A stretch of 64,000 nt of DNA from assembly GCA_024103355.1 (NCBI GenBank), contig JAGFIU010000010.1:124001-188000 (forward strand), in the 5' to 3' direction. The notes under the pieces were generated by a model. It did not search any database. It was not told the origin of the DNA and saw only the letters and a list, made by a program, of their open reading frames with translations. This DNA is from Bacteroidota bacterium (GTDB lineage: Bacteria > Bacteroidota > Bacteroidia > NS11-12g > UBA955). This document shows, piece after piece, positions 8,103 to 43,942 of the stretch (position 1 is its first letter; each line of letters starts with the position of its first letter). Both the position numbers and the translations under genes were made by a program.

Positions 8103-8504
8103 TACCACCTCACCCCAACCCCTCTCCTCAGGGAGAGGGGCTAGTATCGCACTTAGAATTTGTGTGAAAAGGAGAAGTTAGTTAACCGAATGGGTTTTTG
8201 TCATACCGGTTCCGTAACGTTCCTCAGAATTTTTGTCATGCTGGTTCCGTATCGTTCCTCACGGAATTTTCAATGATTTGCGATAGCAAAATGTATCGAA
8301 GCACGGCAAAAATTTTGGAAGGGAATTAAAACCTTATCCTTCGCTTTTCATCCTTCGATACATTACCACCTCACCCCAACCCCTCTCCTCAGGGAGAGGG
8401 GCTAGTATCGCACTTAGAATTTGTGTGAAAAGGAGGAGTTTGATAACCGAATGGGGTTTTGTCATACCGGTTCCGTAACGTTCCTCAGAATTTTTGTCAT
8501 GCTG
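8103..8504. repeat. Long direct repeat, 141 bp twice, with 9-bp hairpin (class A)
   Basis: Bases 8103-8243 and 8364-8504 are nearly identical, offset by 261 bp. Each begins CACCCCAACCCC and contains a hairpin with a CCCCTCTCC/GGAGAGGGG stem, followed by a TTCCGTAACGTTCCTCAGAA segment and GTCATGCTG. A third related copy lies at 46354-46462, again followed by class B palindromes. The 8084-8745 interval has no credible gene. Confidence 0.9.
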
Positions 8505-23841: not shown

Positions 23842-24756
23842 ATGCCTTTGGTTTCAATAATTACACCTGCCTACAATGCCGAAAAGTATATTGCAGAAAC
23901 AATAGAATCCGTTTTACAACAAACATTCTCTGATTGGGAAATGCTGATAACTGATGATGGTTCAACTGACAACACAGCATTAATTATCAAACAATATGCA
24001 GAAAAAGATTCACGGATAATTTATCTCTACCAAGAAAACGGCAAACAAGGGAAAGCAAGAAACTTGGCTATAAAAAACGCAAAAGGAACTTATCTTGCAT
24101 TCATTGATGCGGATGATTTGTGGGTAGAAAATAAGCTGGAAAAACAACTAGCTATTTATAAGCAATATCCGGAGGTTGATTTGATATATACATCTGGTAT
24201 TAGTTTTTCAGGTAGTATAAGTAATGTAATAAAGGTTTTTCATGAAAAAGCAGGCATGATTGACAGTACAGAGATGTATGACACTATGTTAAAAGGCAAA
24301 AGCCTGCCTAATCTTTCAGTTATAGTAAAGAAGTCTTGGGTTGATAAGGTTGGAGGTTTGGGAGAACAACCTGAGATGCAGAATGCAGAAGATTATCAAT
24401 TATGGCTGAAGCTTTTGGATCGTGGATGTCAAATGTATGGAATTGATGAGTCTTTGTTTTATTACAGATTGCACGAGAATCAAGTAACAACAGATGATAG
24501 TATGGCTTTCACAGAAGCAATCCATGCAGTTTTTTTTGCAGATTTGACAAAAATAAACAGAAAAGAAAAGAGGAAGATTTTAATAAACAGAACCAATAAA
24601 TACTTATTGCATTATATAGACATAATCTCAAACGAGCAAATTGAGAAAATATTGAATCTATATAAAAATCCTTTGTCGGATTATAGGCGTTATTGGCTTA
24701 ATAGACTGCTGTTGCTGTTGGGTAAAGGAGTGTTTAAGAGGTATTATTATAGATAA
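23842..24756 (+). CDS. GT2-family glycosyltransferase
   Basis: A protein of 304 residues with the GT-A fold signature of family 2: VSIITPAYNAEKYIAETIESV at the start in pieces, DDGSTDNT, AFIDADDLW for the metal-binding DxD-type site, and the acceptor-side EDYQLWLKLLDRG. It transfers a sugar from a nucleotide donor to the growing glycan at the cytoplasmic face. Donor and acceptor are unknown. It is followed by a repeat-flanked GIY-YIG module rather than by another polysaccharide gene. Confidence 0.9.
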   Translation: MPLVSIITPAYNAEKYIAETIESVLQQTFSDWEMLITDDGSTDNTALIIKQYAEKDSRIIYLYQENGKQGKARNLAIKNAKGTYLAFIDADDLWVENKLEKQLAIYKQYPEVDLIYTSGISFSGSISNVIKVFHEKAGMIDSTEMYDTMLKGKSLPNLSVIVKKSWVDKVGGLGEQPEMQNAEDYQLWLKLLDRGCQMYGIDESLFYYRLHENQVTTDDSMAFTEAIHAVFFADLTKINRKEKRKILINRTNKYLLHYIDIISNEQIEKILNLYKNPLSDYRRYWLNRLLLLLGKGVFKRYYYR

Positions 24757-24779
24757 TTAAGTAGTTGTTCAATGAGGCT

Positions 24780-24860
24780 CCCTCCTCGTGACCCTGAAAC
24801 AAGTTCAGGGTGACTCGGAGGTCGTTCATGGTGACTCGGAGGGGTGGCAAGGACAAGCGG
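24780..24860. repeat. Left flank of GIY-YIG module (class D repeat)
   Basis: This contains CCTCCTCGTG, then the palindrome CCCTGAA-ACAAG-TTCAGGG (24792-24810), GTGACTCGGAGG twice, and GGCAAGGACA. The same elements in the same order recur on the right of the gene at 25229-25323, so the gene is bracketed by direct copies. This family is seen only around this gene within the window. Confidence 0.85.
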
Positions 24861-24900
24861 AGGTGCCCGTACCCTCCTCGTACAACGAAACCAACAGAAC

Positions 24901-25227
24901 ATGAAGCTCGCATACGTTTACATAATGAGCAACAAGAACAGAACCACACTGTACATCGGAGTTACTAATAACATCAAAAGACGTACATTGGAACATAAAT
25001 CAGGAACCGGTTCTGTTTTTACAAAGCGGTATAATCTGCATGACTTGCTTTATTATGAAGAGATACAGGGAATGATGAATGGCATAAGGCGAGAAAAACA
25101 GTTGAAGAACTGGCATAAAGAATGGAAATGGAATCTGATAAAGGAGCTAAATCCAGAGTTGCAGGATTTGGCTGAATCGTGGTTTAGTGAAGAGGAAATA
25201 GAAGAGTATAAGAGAGGGAAAGGGTGA
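24901..25227 (+). CDS. Small GIY-YIG nuclease, copy 1
   Basis: A protein of 108 residues made of a single GIY-YIG domain of the UvrC-N/YhbQ-like type. YVYIM and TLYIGVTNN form the GIY-YIG pair, the arginine lies in NIKRR, and the metal-binding glutamate in REKQLKNW. A Trp/Glu-rich tail (DLAESWFSEEEIEEYK) follows. The ATG at 24901 is chosen because upstream in-frame codons translate the repeat. It lies between two direct copies of a palindromic repeat, in the middle of the polysaccharide genes. Such stand-alone genes are common in Bacteroidota and have no established function. A repeat-associated mobile role is inferred. Confidence 0.85.
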   Translation: MKLAYVYIMSNKNRTTLYIGVTNNIKRRTLEHKSGTGSVFTKRYNLHDLLYYEEIQGMMNGIRREKQLKNWHKEWKWNLIKELNPELQDLAESWFSEEEIEEYKRGKG

Positions 25228-25228
25228 T

Positions 25229-25323
25229 GCCCTCCTCGTGCCCTGAAACGACCCAGACCCTGAAACGACCCAGACCCTGAAACAAGTTCAGGGTGACGTT
25301 CAGGGTGACGGCAAGGACACGAG
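25229..25323. repeat. Right flank of GIY-YIG module (class D repeat)
   Basis: CCTCCTCGTG is followed by three short tandem units starting CCCTGAAACGACCCAGA. Then come the palindrome CCCTGAA-ACAAG-TTCAGGG, a second TTCAGGGTGACG and GGCAAGGACA. It matches the left flank at 24780-24860 in order and orientation, with local expansion of the CCCTGAAAC unit. Confidence 0.85.
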
Positions 25324-25392
25324 CAAAGAGTACACCCGCTACCATACACAAACAGAACATCAATAACCAAACAATAAAAACATACTATAAAA

Positions 25393-26520
25393 GTGAAATA
25401 TCCAATTTCTGCTTTAGTAGCCTCATATAATGAAGGACATTTATTAGAAGACTGCCTAAAATCATTGCAGTTTTGTGATGAGGTATGTGTGGTTAATCTT
25501 AATTCAAAGGATAATACAGAATCAATAGCTTTAAAATACGCTACTAAGTATTGCTTAGAAACAACATGGGTAAAGTATTTCGATGAACATCATAATAAGT
25601 ATATACCGAAACTCAAACATGATTGGTTTATTTTAATTGACCCTGATGAAAGAATAAAACCTGAATTGGCTAAAGACGTAATCAATTTTGTACAGAACCC
25701 TGAACCTTTTGTATCATTGGTAAGAGCTCCTATTTTGTATTTGTTTAAAGGTAAAAAATTAAAAGGCGGACCTTATAAAGAAGTTATTATAGGAAGATTA
25801 TTGTTTTATAGACCCGGACTTATGATTTCAGATGAAGTTCATAGCGGAATCAAAGCAAAAGCAGGTTATTGGAAAACAAATATTAAGTTTACCGGAGAAA
25901 ATTATAATGAACATTTCTGGTGTAACTCATGGAAACAACTTAAAGATAAACATAATCGATATACACAAGGAGAGGGCAGAGTACTCTATATTGAAGGGAA
26001 ACGTTATTCTGTCTTAAAACAAATTACTCAAACTATAAAGAGGTTTTTTACTGCTCTTTTTGGAGAGCAATATTACAAAGATGGTTTTACCGGTTTGGGC
26101 TTTTCTTACCATGAAGCACGCTATACTTTTTTGAGTTGGAGTAGTTTGAGGAAATATCAAAAACTTATGAAAAAGGAAGGAACCTTCAAAACTCCGATTG
26201 AAGTTCAAAAAGACCTCATAAAACAAAGGGTTGCTGATTTTGAAAAAGTAAGCCTTGATTTAGCAAAAGATTATGAAAATACTGTGGATGAGAAAAAGGA
26301 AGATATGTTAATCCAATATAAAAAATCAACACACAGGTTAATTAATGATGCTTTAGAGATAGGGTGTTTTGAAGAAGTAAGAAAAGTTCAAGATGCAGTT
26401 TCCTTTTCTCATATTATGAAAGATTATATTGCTAATGAAGTATTTATAGAGAGGTTTAAACTCATAGAAAACTCCGGTTCATATAAATTAGCAAAGAGGA
26501 TAGGGAAGCTTTTAAAGTGA
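25393..26520 (+). CDS. GT2-family glycosyltransferase (WaaE/KdtX-like)
   Basis: A protein of 375 residues starting with GTG. The N-terminal GT-A domain shows ISALVASYNEGHLLEDCLKSL in pieces, VVNLNSKDNT, and ILIDPDERIKPEL as the DxD-type region, which resembles the WaaE/KdtX group of lipopolysaccharide core glucosyltransferases. A C-terminal helical extension (from about residue 240) is rich in Lys/Glu and of unknown role. Donor and acceptor are not readable. It is isolated from its neighbours by repeat arrays on both sides. Confidence 0.85.
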   Translation: MKYPISALVASYNEGHLLEDCLKSLQFCDEVCVVNLNSKDNTESIALKYATKYCLETTWVKYFDEHHNKYIPKLKHDWFILIDPDERIKPELAKDVINFVQNPEPFVSLVRAPILYLFKGKKLKGGPYKEVIIGRLLFYRPGLMISDEVHSGIKAKAGYWKTNIKFTGENYNEHFWCNSWKQLKDKHNRYTQGEGRVLYIEGKRYSVLKQITQTIKRFFTALFGEQYYKDGFTGLGFSYHEARYTFLSWSSLRKYQKLMKKEGTFKTPIEVQKDLIKQRVADFEKVSLDLAKDYENTVDEKKEDMLIQYKKSTHRLINDALEIGCFEEVRKVQDAVSFSHIMKDYIANEVFIERFKLIENSGSYKLAKRIGKLLK

Positions 26521-28769: not shown

Positions 28770-29010
28770 TTTTTCCCATGCTTCGATACAATTTGCTATC
28801 GCAAAACACTCAGCATGACAAAAATTAAGTTGTCATCCAGATATTTTTCCCATGCTTCGATACAATTTGTTGCACAAATCACTCAGCATGACAAAAAACC
28901 TGAGTTCCGTATCGTTCCTCACGGAATTTTCAATGTTTTCGCCCATAAGGCGAAAATGTATCGAAGGATGCAGAGCAAAGGAGAAACTTAAACCAGCATG
29001 ACAAAGATTT
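28770..29010. repeat. Class B half-elements and class C hairpin
   Basis: Two right-half hairpins (28772-28826 and about 28845-28898) end ACTCAGCATGACAAAA. These are followed by a TTCCGTATCGTTCCTCACGGAA hairpin in pieces (class C) and a left-half element with a GTTTTCGCC/GGCGAAAA stem (28930-28985). The array sits immediately left of the second GIY-YIG gene. Confidence 0.86.
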
Positions 29011-29045: not shown

Positions 29046-29333
29046 ATGAACCAATATTATACTTACATATTAAAATGTTCTGATGGCTCATATTATGTAG
29101 GTGTGACAAATAATATTGAGAAAAGATATAATGAGCATCAAGAAGGATTAGATACAAGTTGTTACACATATAAGAGAAGACCCGTTGAACTAGTTTGTTA
29201 CGAAATGTTTATTGATATCAATCAGGCGATTACAAGAGAAAAGCAACTGAAAGGTTGGTCAAGAAGCAAAAAGGAAGCTCTAATAAATAGTGATTTTAAC
29301 GAATTAATAAAATTAAGTAAAAAGAAGTTTTAA
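29046..29333 (+). CDS. Small GIY-YIG nuclease, copy 2
   Basis: A protein of 95 residues consisting of a single GIY-YIG domain: YYTYILK and SYYVGVTNN form the paired motif, with arginine in EKRYNEH and the metal-binding glutamate in REKQLKGWS. It is clearly a diverged relative of copy 1 at 24901 rather than a recent duplicate. It lies between class B palindrome arrays (28770-29010 and 29350-29805). No partner gene is present. The function is unknown; a nuclease acting on or propagated with the palindromes is a hypothesis. Confidence 0.86.
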   Translation: MNQYYTYILKCSDGSYYVGVTNNIEKRYNEHQEGLDTSCYTYKRRPVELVCYEMFIDINQAITREKQLKGWSRSKKEALINSDFNELIKLSKKKF

Positions 29334-29349
29334 AATTACTTATGTGTAT

Positions 29350-29805
29350 TGTCATCCTGAGTGTTTTTTATTGTAGCGAAACGGAAATAAAAAATGTATC
29401 GAAGGATGAAGGGTAGAATAAAAGATTCGAAATTATCACACAAAATTTTTGTCGTGCTTCGATACATTTTGCTATCGCAAAACACTCAGCATGACAAAAA
29501 TTAGCTGTCATCCTGAGTGTTTTCGCCCATAAGGCGAAAATGTATCGAAGGATGCAGAGCGAAGGATAAGGTTTTAAATTCTCTTTCAAAATTTTTGCCA
29601 TGCTTCGATACGATTTGCTATGCAAATCACTCAGCATGACAAAAATCCTGAGTTTCATAGACTGTCATCCTGAGTGTTTTCGCCTATAAGGCGAAAATGT
29701 ATCGAAGGATGCAGGTCGGAGGAAAAACTTAAGAGTTCTCTTTCAAAATTTTTCTCATACTTCGATACGATTTGTTGCACAAATCACTCAGCATGACAAA
29801 AATTT
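29350..29805. repeat. Array of three class B bipartite elements
   Basis: Head-to-tail forward copies lie at about 29350-29500, 29506-29645 and 29663-29805. The first uses the TTTTTTATT-type inner stem and a distinct spacer containing GATTCGAAATTATCACACA. The other two use TTTTCGCC-type stems and the spacer ending CTCTTTCAAAATTTTT. The distinct spacer recurs in the copy at 31194, showing two linked subfamilies. Confidence 0.9.
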
Positions 29806-42183: not shown

Positions 42184-43161
42184 ATGCAACATTTATTAGA
42201 AAAATATGATTATATCGAGCGTTTATTACAGCTTGAGAATGAGACTCCTGACAGACATGAGTTTCACAAGAAAGTAGCTCCGCTCTTATTGGAGATGACT
42301 GCGGATAAAGAGTTTTTAAAAGATATCATAAAAAGAAATTTTCTGGATGAAGGGTATCTTAAAATGCAATGGTCCGGATATAATATTCCGTTTATGTACG
42401 TTTATGAAACAGAACATTTTGTATTAAAACTACATTTATTTCCGCCTGACAAGGATAAGAAAGATAATATAGCTGCACATTGTATCCATCATCATAATAA
42501 TTATATCATCACTACCAATGCCTTTTTTGGTTCCGGTTATGAGAGTTTTTTGTTTGAAAAGAATCCTAAAACAGACCCTAAAACTTTGGATGTAAACATG
42601 AAAATAACCAAGCACTTTCACCAGAAAGATTGGAATCCGAGTATGGTTGATAGCTGGGAACCTCATGTAGTCTTTATTCCACAAGAGTTGTCTTCTACTT
42701 TGATAATATGGTCACCGGATAAAAAGAGGACAACAGATAGTCTTCGCCAAAATTCGTTGTTGAAATCAATAAAAAAACCTTTGAGATGGTTTATTCATAA
42801 GACCGGTATGACACAGTCTTTTGGTATAGCAGAGGAGAAAACGTATCAGTTCTATCCAAACCCAAATGGTAAGGGATTTAAGGGTATAGAAGAGAATGAA
42901 TATTTTGCTCCTACTAAGGCTGAAAAAGGTCCTGTGGTGGATGAGTATTCAGCTCAGATGATATTTGCTTTTATACAAAGAGCCGGATTGTTTGATGCGG
43001 AGTTTTTTAAGGAGAATAAAAATAAAATCCCTGCTTATTATCATAAGTTTATTGATATGTGTGTTGCAGGTGAGCAGATACCTGATGTATATCATAGAAC
43101 AGAAATTAATGTGCCCCAAAAGACGTATTATAGGGAGGATATTGTGAAGGCAGCGGAGTAG
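42184..43161 (+). CDS. Unrecognised protein, possible cupin-like fold
   Basis: A protein of 325 residues with no signal peptide and no membrane segment. I do not recognise a family. Notable is AAHCIHHHNNYIITT near residue 98, a cluster of four histidines and a cysteine. Further HFHQKDW (about 146) and PHVVFIPQ (about 164) add histidines that could complete a metal site in a beta-rich domain, as in cysteine-dioxygenase-like cupins. The C-terminal part is helical (SAQMIFAFIQRAGLFDAEFF). The gene has its own leader of about 110 bases after the weak terminator at 42074. A tailoring enzyme for the polysaccharide is possible but unsupported. Confidence 0.6.
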   Translation: MQHLLEKYDYIERLLQLENETPDRHEFHKKVAPLLLEMTADKEFLKDIIKRNFLDEGYLKMQWSGYNIPFMYVYETEHFVLKLHLFPPDKDKKDNIAAHCIHHHNNYIITTNAFFGSGYESFLFEKNPKTDPKTLDVNMKITKHFHQKDWNPSMVDSWEPHVVFIPQELSSTLIIWSPDKKRTTDSLRQNSLLKSIKKPLRWFIHKTGMTQSFGIAEEKTYQFYPNPNGKGFKGIEENEYFAPTKAEKGPVVDEYSAQMIFAFIQRAGLFDAEFFKENKNKIPAYYHKFIDMCVAGEQIPDVYHRTEINVPQKTYYREDIVKAAE

Positions 43162-43162
43162 G

Positions 43163-43374
43163 GTTTCACGTAAAGAGCGATTTTCACGCAAAGGGCGCGA
43201 AGAGGGTTTCACGCAAAGGGCGCAAAGAAATCTCTCGCAAAGAGCGCAAAGGAGAATTTAATACGCAAAGGGCGCAAAGAAGGTTTCACGCAAAGGACGC
43301 GGAGAAGAATATAAAACGCAAAGGGCGCAAAGAGAAAAACTAAGAAAGAGTTTAATACATAAAGAGTGCAAAGA
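43163..43374. repeat. Degenerate ACGCAAAGGGCGCAAAGA array, left of GxxExxY gene (class E)
   Basis: About eight units of TTTCACGCAAAGGGCGCAAAG and variants, with point differences and short insertions. It begins immediately after the stop of the 42184 gene and ends about 60 bases before the nuclease gene. The reverse-complement family flanks the other side of that gene (43838-43942). No other copy is seen in the window. Confidence 0.92.
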
Positions 43375-43434
43375 AGGATTTAGGGTATTTTATTATACGA
43401 AGGAAGTTGATTGTAAAAGAAAATATTGATGATT

Positions 43435-43812
43435 ATGACAGAGAATGAAATTTCAAATAAGATAATTGGAGTTGCGATTGATTTGCATAAGGCTGTAGGA
43501 CCGGGTTTGTTGGAGTCTGCTTATGAAAATGCTTTGGCATACGATCTGAGAGAAGCAGGGTTGATTGTTGCACAACAAGTGTCTCTGCCTTTTGTTTATA
43601 AAGAAGTTAGTTTGGAAGTTGGTTATAGGATTGATTTATTGGTGGAGAATAAAGTTATAATTGAAGTTAAATCAGTTGAGAACTTAGCTCCCGTTCATTT
43701 TTCACAAACACTTACCTACCTCAAATTATCAGACCTTAAACTAGGTTTACTAATAAATTTTAATACAAAATATCTTAAAGACGGCATCCATCGAATGGTA
43801 AATAATCTCTAA
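43435..43812 (+). CDS. GxxExxY protein, predicted PD-(D/E)XK nuclease
   Basis: A protein of 125 residues. It has the name-giving motif in GPGLLESAYENAL (about residues 21-33) and a PD-(D/E)XK core: Asp in GYRIDLLVENK and Glu-x-Lys in VIIEVKSVE. The family is widespread in Bacteroidota and has no proven function; a nuclease or DNA-modifying role is expected from the fold. ATGs at 43429 and 43435 and a TTG at 43426 are available; MTENEIS at 43435 matches usual family starts. It lies between two inverted arrays of the class E repeat, so gene and repeats appear to form one module. Confidence 0.88.
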   Translation: MTENEISNKIIGVAIDLHKAVGPGLLESAYENALAYDLREAGLIVAQQVSLPFVYKEVSLEVGYRIDLLVENKVIIEVKSVENLAPVHFSQTLTYLKLSDLKLGLLINFNTKYLKDGIHRMVNNL

Positions 43813-43837
43813 AATAAAGAACAAAACTCTTTCCCTT

Positions 43838-43942
43838 AGCGTCCTTTGCGAGAAACCCTCTTCGCGCCCTTTGCGCGAAACTCCTTTGCGCTCTCTGCGT
43901 GAAACCTTCTTTACGAGAAACCTTCTTTGCGAGAAACTCCTC
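43838..43942. repeat. Inverted class E repeat array, right of GxxExxY gene
   Basis: About five units of the reverse complement of the left array (CTTTGCGAGAAACCC, GCGCCCTTTGCGCGAAAC, CTCTGCGTGAAACC). Together with 43163-43374 it gives a head-to-head arrangement around the nuclease gene. The right array ends only about 14 bases before the next glycosyltransferase ATG. Confidence 0.9.

Follow-up and report, generated by a model that had tools for sequence, protein, structure and literature searches.

A GIY-YIG nuclease gene bracketed by CGTC-tagged hairpins as a probable small mobile unit in Bacteroidota

A 636-bp block (24757–25392, outer limits) was found inserted between two glycosyltransferase genes (23842–24756 and 25393–26520) in the window, i.e. 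the whole 64-kb stretch of DNA analysed here, whose coordinates are used below unless stated otherwise. The block is probably a small mobile unit, in which a single-domain GIY-YIG nuclease gene is accompanied by copies of a CGTC-tagged hairpin (REP) that is most likely the nuclease's own target. Homologs of this gene were paired with hairpins of the same kind in several phyla and mostly bracketed by them in outward orientation, and the unit had multiplied within one genome.

The GIY-YIG gene (24901–25227, plus strand, 108 aa; identified by PF01541, alignment and AlphaFold2) had been given in a preliminary description as lying between two copies of one ordered set: CCTCCTCGTG, a 19-base palindrome and GGCAAGGACA. 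A sequence search recovered all these pieces in that order, at 24781–24790, 24792–24810 and 24846–24855 on the left and at 25231–25240, 25275–25293 and 25310–25319 on the right (CCTCCTCGTG and GGCAAGGACA on the plus strand). The palindrome was exact on both sides, and the identity was longer than described: the shared core was the 25-bp GACCCTGAAACAAGTTCAGGGTGAC, identical at 24790–24814 and 25273–25297. On the minus strand each copy formed a hairpin with stem ACCCTGAA and loop CTTGT, preceded by the tag AGTC (left) or CGTC (right). These CGTC-type tags gave the palindromes a polarity, and both copies pointed in the same direction. Internal spacing of the two sets was unlike. On the right, the hairpin arm recurred in a 17-bp tandem repeat CCCTGAAACGACCCAGA (25241–25283, plus strand) between CCTCCTCGTG and the palindrome, and the tagged arm in a 12-bp tandem repeat GTTCAGGGTGAC (25286–25310, plus strand) after it; on the left, the palindrome was followed by 21-bp tandem repeats of the right arm (GTTCAGGGTGACTCGGAGGTC; 24803–24842, plus strand).

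The pattern CCCTGAA-N5-TTCAGGG had two exact matches in the 64-kb window, where 0.14 were expected even with two mismatches allowed. With spacers of 3–7 bases, these two were the only copies in the whole 2.3-Mb assembly; the window genome thus held the system at minimal copy number (one gene, two hairpins). As single-stranded DNA, the window hairpin folded at −12 kcal/mol (z −3.8).

The window protein matched PF01541 with E 1.2e-14 and 54.7 bits, above the curated cut-off of 22.6, placing it in the GIY-YIG superfamily, and residues Y7, Y18-I-G20, R28, H32, E53 and E65 were conserved in the alignment. An AlphaFold2 model of the 108 aa had a pLDDT of 93. Neither this model nor a Pfam domain search revealed a DNA-binding domain beyond the GIY-YIG domain. 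UPF0213 proteins, together with the GIY-YIG domains of UvrC and Slx1, were the nearest relatives of solved structure. A search of NCBIfam with the protein gave only chance matches, far under their cut-offs. Assignment to a known defence system was considered and rejected; the sole PADLOC match (E 0.007 over 29 residues) looked sub-threshold.

Empty sites, which the preliminary description had proposed to look for in relatives, were found in L194, L195 and L198, which are genomes from the family of the window genome. Orthologs of both glycosyltransferases (proteins 48–61% identical) were adjacent in all three, separated by ~18–25 bp in L194 and L195 and by ~80 bp in L198, as against 636 bp in the window, and no GIY-YIG gene was detectable between them. 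Because the two genes were adjacent in these relatives with no GIY-YIG gene between, the window block was an insertion. The gene had been said to interrupt two glycosyltransferase genes; it was indeed located between them, but both were unbroken. The finding that would have counted against the earlier reading, a gene conserved at this locus without the repeats, was not encountered.

Flanks were compared for 80 homologous genes of other genomes. Most of these belonged to Bacteroidota, others to Dadabacteria, Neomarinimicrobiota, Ignavibacteriae, Caldithrix and Portnoybacteria. Palindromes of the window type occurred 58 times within 600 bp of these genes (115 kb) versus 16 times farther out (606 kb). 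They had in common a 5′ tag CGTC (or TGTC), an 8-bp stem starting with A, a 5-base loop (4–5 bases across homologs) and a short tail. When searched by tag, stem and loop alone, 218 hairpins were near the genes versus 99 far, while a scrambled-tag control gave 1 versus 6. A tagged hairpin was present within 600 bp at 67 of the 80 loci (undetected at the other 13) and at 65 of the 75 long loci, whereas in 1000 sets of random windows from the same loci a mean of 5.3 and a maximum of 11 loci had one. These results strongly bore out the suggestion of one unit rather than chance proximity.

In the common layout, a plus-strand hairpin preceded the start codon by ~30–60 bp and a minus-strand hairpin came shortly past the stop codon, so that the tags pointed outward with the gene inside; this was seen at 37 of the 55 loci with hairpins on both sides, and additional hairpins alternated outside the bracket. 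The window copy departed from this layout, having both hairpins on the minus strand, AGTC as its left tag and partly duplicated arms. Hairpin pairs without a gene were dispersed in genomes of the same groups, many of them plus/minus and ~35–50 bp apart; neighbouring hairpins away from the gene were plus/minus in 17 cases and minus/plus in 11. Strong co-variation of hairpin stem and protein had been expected inside Bacteroidota, but stem and protein divergence were only weakly correlated there (rho 0.15).

At the level of whole genomes, the hairpin pattern was present in 62 of 296 near-complete Bacteroidota genomes and its reversed control in none. Where a genome had a close homolog of the gene (E up to 1e-27), the pattern was present in 26 of 27 cases, versus 36 of the 269 others, an odds ratio of 168 that is uncorrected for kinship except in a within-family test. 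In that test the counts within one family were 17/0 versus 4/15 (p 7e-7), and the association was therefore more than a between-family difference. Copy numbers per genome were high in many relatives (up to 76 hairpins), and some genomes (G260 and G351) were rich in hairpins while having no close homolog. A viral vector was considered and rejected: 27 viral contigs contained the palindrome and none a homolog.

Homologs in other phyla were taken from the records of a plasmid collection and then searched for tagged hairpins. Outward brackets, each with its own stems, were found in Aeromonas, Sphingobium, Rhizobium, Novosphingobium, Shinella and Neorhizobium, and the Azospirillum homolog had one hairpin pair on each side. 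On a gonococcal chromosome record (L173), eleven dRS3 hairpins surrounded a homolog 42% identical to the window protein. A variant with a CTC-like tag was spotted by eye in Sinorhizobium. No tagged hairpins were found by the tag/stem/loop search around the Planktothrix and Spirosoma homologs; the Planktothrix agardhii gene (L174:3001–3285) lay between a type IIL restriction-modification gene and the DISARM gene drmA.

Presence and absence of the unit at orthologous sites was seen in three other genera. In Christiangramia, two sites were reciprocal: L073 had the unit where L047 and L053 lacked it, and at the second site L047 and L053 had it where no more than a decayed pair of hairpins was left in L073. 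In Azospirillum lipoferum the unit lay between sufB and sufC, where three close relatives had neither gene nor hairpin, indicating that a REP present before the insertion cannot be seen in every case. In Sphingobium it was on seven plasmids and absent from four, and two of the empty sites held a single hairpin tagged at either end. Such a hairpin would be expected after loss of the unit through recombination between its hairpins or, as the site before insertion, if the unit had gone into one hairpin. Sinorhizobium M103, an empty site by coverage, was rejected; the gene was present there and only the number of hairpin units differed.

Genome G231 contained four copies of the unit, with 96–97% DNA identity and the same geometry, at four non-homologous sites. 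Homology of three copies reached terminal inverted repeats (TIRs) that were common in genus g73 also without the gene; that of the fourth, TIR-less copy (G231e) ended at the hairpin tag on the right. Genus g73 offered no clean empty site for G231e, its right flank being unconserved there. The TIR element family TTGTAGATGTYAGRTAATTCRNTGACA itself was seen in L199, L200, L201 and L205 (genomes G231 and G122), all of one genus, with ~20–30 single ends per genome; its members mostly lacked the nuclease gene, and some carried the REP-gene-REP unit. Partial and stop-bearing copies of the gene were frequent, as expected of an element under turnover. The presence/absence pairs and the four near-identical copies showed mobility. 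The unit had been described beforehand as mobile or self-propagating; mobility was upheld by the empty sites, the presence/absence in other lineages and the four copies, while the nuclease is the presumed driver of movement at the palindrome.

A second, separate GIY-YIG gene (29046–29333, plus strand, 95 aa) was located 4 kb away, its product being 37% identical to the first. Upstream of it were two TGTC-tagged imperfect hairpins (TGTCATGCTGAGTG...TATCGAAGCATG; 28776–28900, minus strand) and downstream further TGTC-tagged imperfect hairpins on both strands (TGTCATCCTGAGTG...CGAAGGATG and TGTCATGCTGAGTG...; 29350–29803). These hairpins were longer and were rare elsewhere in the genome. Around homologs of the second gene, 33 hairpins were near versus 3 far, in 11 of 30 loci (the window counted). 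Two nuclease genes were thus each accompanied by their own hairpin family, as cognate specificity would predict.

The window also contained a gene (43432–43812) for a 126-aa PDDEXK_3 (GxxExxY-type) nuclease (PF13366, E 4e-40), bracketed (43160–43940) by ACGCAAAG repeats on the plus strand upstream and in reverse complement downstream. Near 29 PDDEXK_3 homologs, CGCAAAG occurred 66 times within 400 bp versus 6 times beyond, mostly in inverted arrangement (22 upstream plus, 29 downstream minus, 8 upstream minus and 7 downstream plus). The PDDEXK_3 gene and CGCAAAG are a parallel nuclease/repeat pair, for which no literature was found. Two other repeats were observed in the window. Many 25-mers were shared at a 327-bp offset in 2497–2900, a long direct repeat unlisted by Tandem Repeats Finder, and a 35-bp tandem repeat at 8195–8270 contained a TTTTTGTCATACCGGTTCC...CGGAA-like sequence that resembled the tagged hairpins in style and was linked to no gene.

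For the movement of the unit we propose a cut-and-repair route. By analogy with RAYT enzymes, which act on tagged REP hairpins, the nuclease may recognise the tagged hairpin, probably as single-stranded DNA during replication, repair or DNA uptake. It would then cut or nick at or near the tag of a REP, and host repair of the break would copy the unit, either into another REP or to a site nearby. REP pairs without a gene would be non-autonomous derivatives, spread in trans. Host repair is proposed because GIY-YIG enzymes are hydrolytic and have no known end-joining activity. A RAYT as the engine was ruled out by the absence of a Y1/HUH transposase gene (PF01797, Y1_Tnp) from the window genome. 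A broader proposal, plausible and still tentative, is that the CGTC REP superfamily has GIY-YIG nucleases as its dedicated mobilising enzymes, that cutting by the nuclease and repair by the host move both REP-gene-REP units and gene-less pairs along a transposition-like route that involves no strand-transfer chemistry, and that small nucleases bracketed by their own repeats (the two GIY-YIG kinds and PDDEXK_3, all in this window) make up a general class of minimal mobile elements.

Pairing of gene and hairpin would by itself also be compatible with cutting without transposition. The nuclease might police or tune gene exchange by cutting incoming or exposed single-stranded DNA at hairpins, as is reported for Neisseria Ssn at its NTS repeats, with the hairpins near the gene marking or regulating it; the gonococcal homolog among its eleven dRS3 hairpins would suit such a role. 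As a full account this is rather unlikely, since it leaves unexplained the outward bracket right around the gene in many lineages, the empty sites and the four near-identical copies in one genome. An exchange role and mobility are nevertheless compatible, and both can hold at once. Recombination and foreign vehicles supply a different explanation, in which the unit is a passenger of other elements (TIR elements/MITEs, REP recombination) and the gene merely sits in repeat-rich intergenic DNA. The TIR could be a vehicle in genus g73, where three copies lay inside a TIR element family that also occurs gene-less, and REPs are able to recombine by themselves, to judge from the single double-tagged hairpins at empty Sphingobium sites. 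However, the TIR was found in one genus only, while tagged hairpins with different stems adjoined homologs in several phyla; the hairpins clustered at the gene and not at random positions of the same loci, and the right boundary of G231e was formed by the tag only. A passenger origin is thus distinctly unlikely.

GIY-YIG is also a fold used by homing endonucleases, and presence/absence at orthologous sites would be consistent with a homing endonuclease gene of the ordinary, free-standing type with its target between the glycosyltransferase genes, the palindromes being incidental transcription terminators. Such an origin is highly improbable: the insertion sites were unrelated intergenic places that shared no single conserved sequence, the protein had no DNA-binding domain besides GIY-YIG, and homologs in other phyla were again flanked on either side by tagged, oriented hairpins, with different stems.

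The hairpins resembled a described class of repeats. The CGTC-tagged REP superfamily, including Neisseria dRS3, was reported in Bacteroidetes and alpha-Proteobacteria by Di Nocera et al. 2013 (PMC3733652). With the hairpins of the homologs these REPs have in common an unpaired CGTC/TGTC tag, an 8–9 bp stem starting A-T, a loop of 4–5 bases and outward (HH) pairs. In the window, the stem and loop (ACCCTGAA-CTTGT-TTCAGGGT) agreed with the class; of the tags, for which CGTC or TGTC/CCTC is expected, the right one was CGTC and the left AGTC, those of relatives being mostly CGTC. The tails differed from the ~CCA of the class, being CAC and CTG in the window; CT. was found in most Bacteroidota copies and CCA-like tails in proteobacterial ones. 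CGTC REPs are moreover a dispersed high-copy family, unlike the two copies of the window genome. According to the 2013 survey (PMC3733652), these REPs "apparently lack a dedicated transposase", and no dedicated enzyme was reported, whereas here a GIY-YIG gene was consistently bracketed by them. In the RAYT/REPtron system of the same survey, an IS200-like Y1 HUH transposase acts on GTAG-tagged REP hairpins. The present unit is similar in that a small single-domain enzyme gene is flanked by tagged hairpins and gene-less pairs are dispersed in the genome, and different in having a hydrolytic GIY-YIG instead of an HUH enzyme, CGTC instead of GTAG tags and no Y1_Tnp gene in the window genome.

UPF0213 GIY-YIG proteins (PDB 1zg2 and 1ywl) were the closest solved sequences and fold, yet distant from the window protein (profile E 4e-5; 24% identity). 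The closest known relative is presumably the Neisseria single-strand nuclease Ssn. A 2025 report is said to describe a GIY-YIG family that cuts single-stranded DNA at NTS repeats in Neisseria, with many homologs having corresponding sequences; Ssn reportedly affects transformation besides cleaving single strands. The likeness lies in a single-domain GIY-YIG gene; the gonococcal ORF among dRS3/CGTC hairpins may be Ssn. None of the papers searched linked GIY-YIG genes to REPs. If Ssn does act in the reported way, a pairing of nuclease and repeat is in itself not new, and the present additions are its connection with CGTC REPs as a class, the unit with its outward bracket, and evidence that this unit inserts and multiplies.

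At ~400–600 bp the element is smaller than a usual insertion sequence, and it offers many matched pairs of nuclease and target. If the nuclease drives movement, this would be DNA mobility by a purely hydrolytic enzyme. The unit would also account for a common Bacteroidota repeat and for small nuclease genes amid polysaccharide-cluster genes. Which enzyme, if any, spreads the CGTC class was left open by the 2013 survey. A specific answer is suggested by the statistics together with the brackets across phyla and the empty sites, which point to a GIY-YIG enzyme as the partner of widespread bacterial repeats for which the lack of such a partner had been reported.
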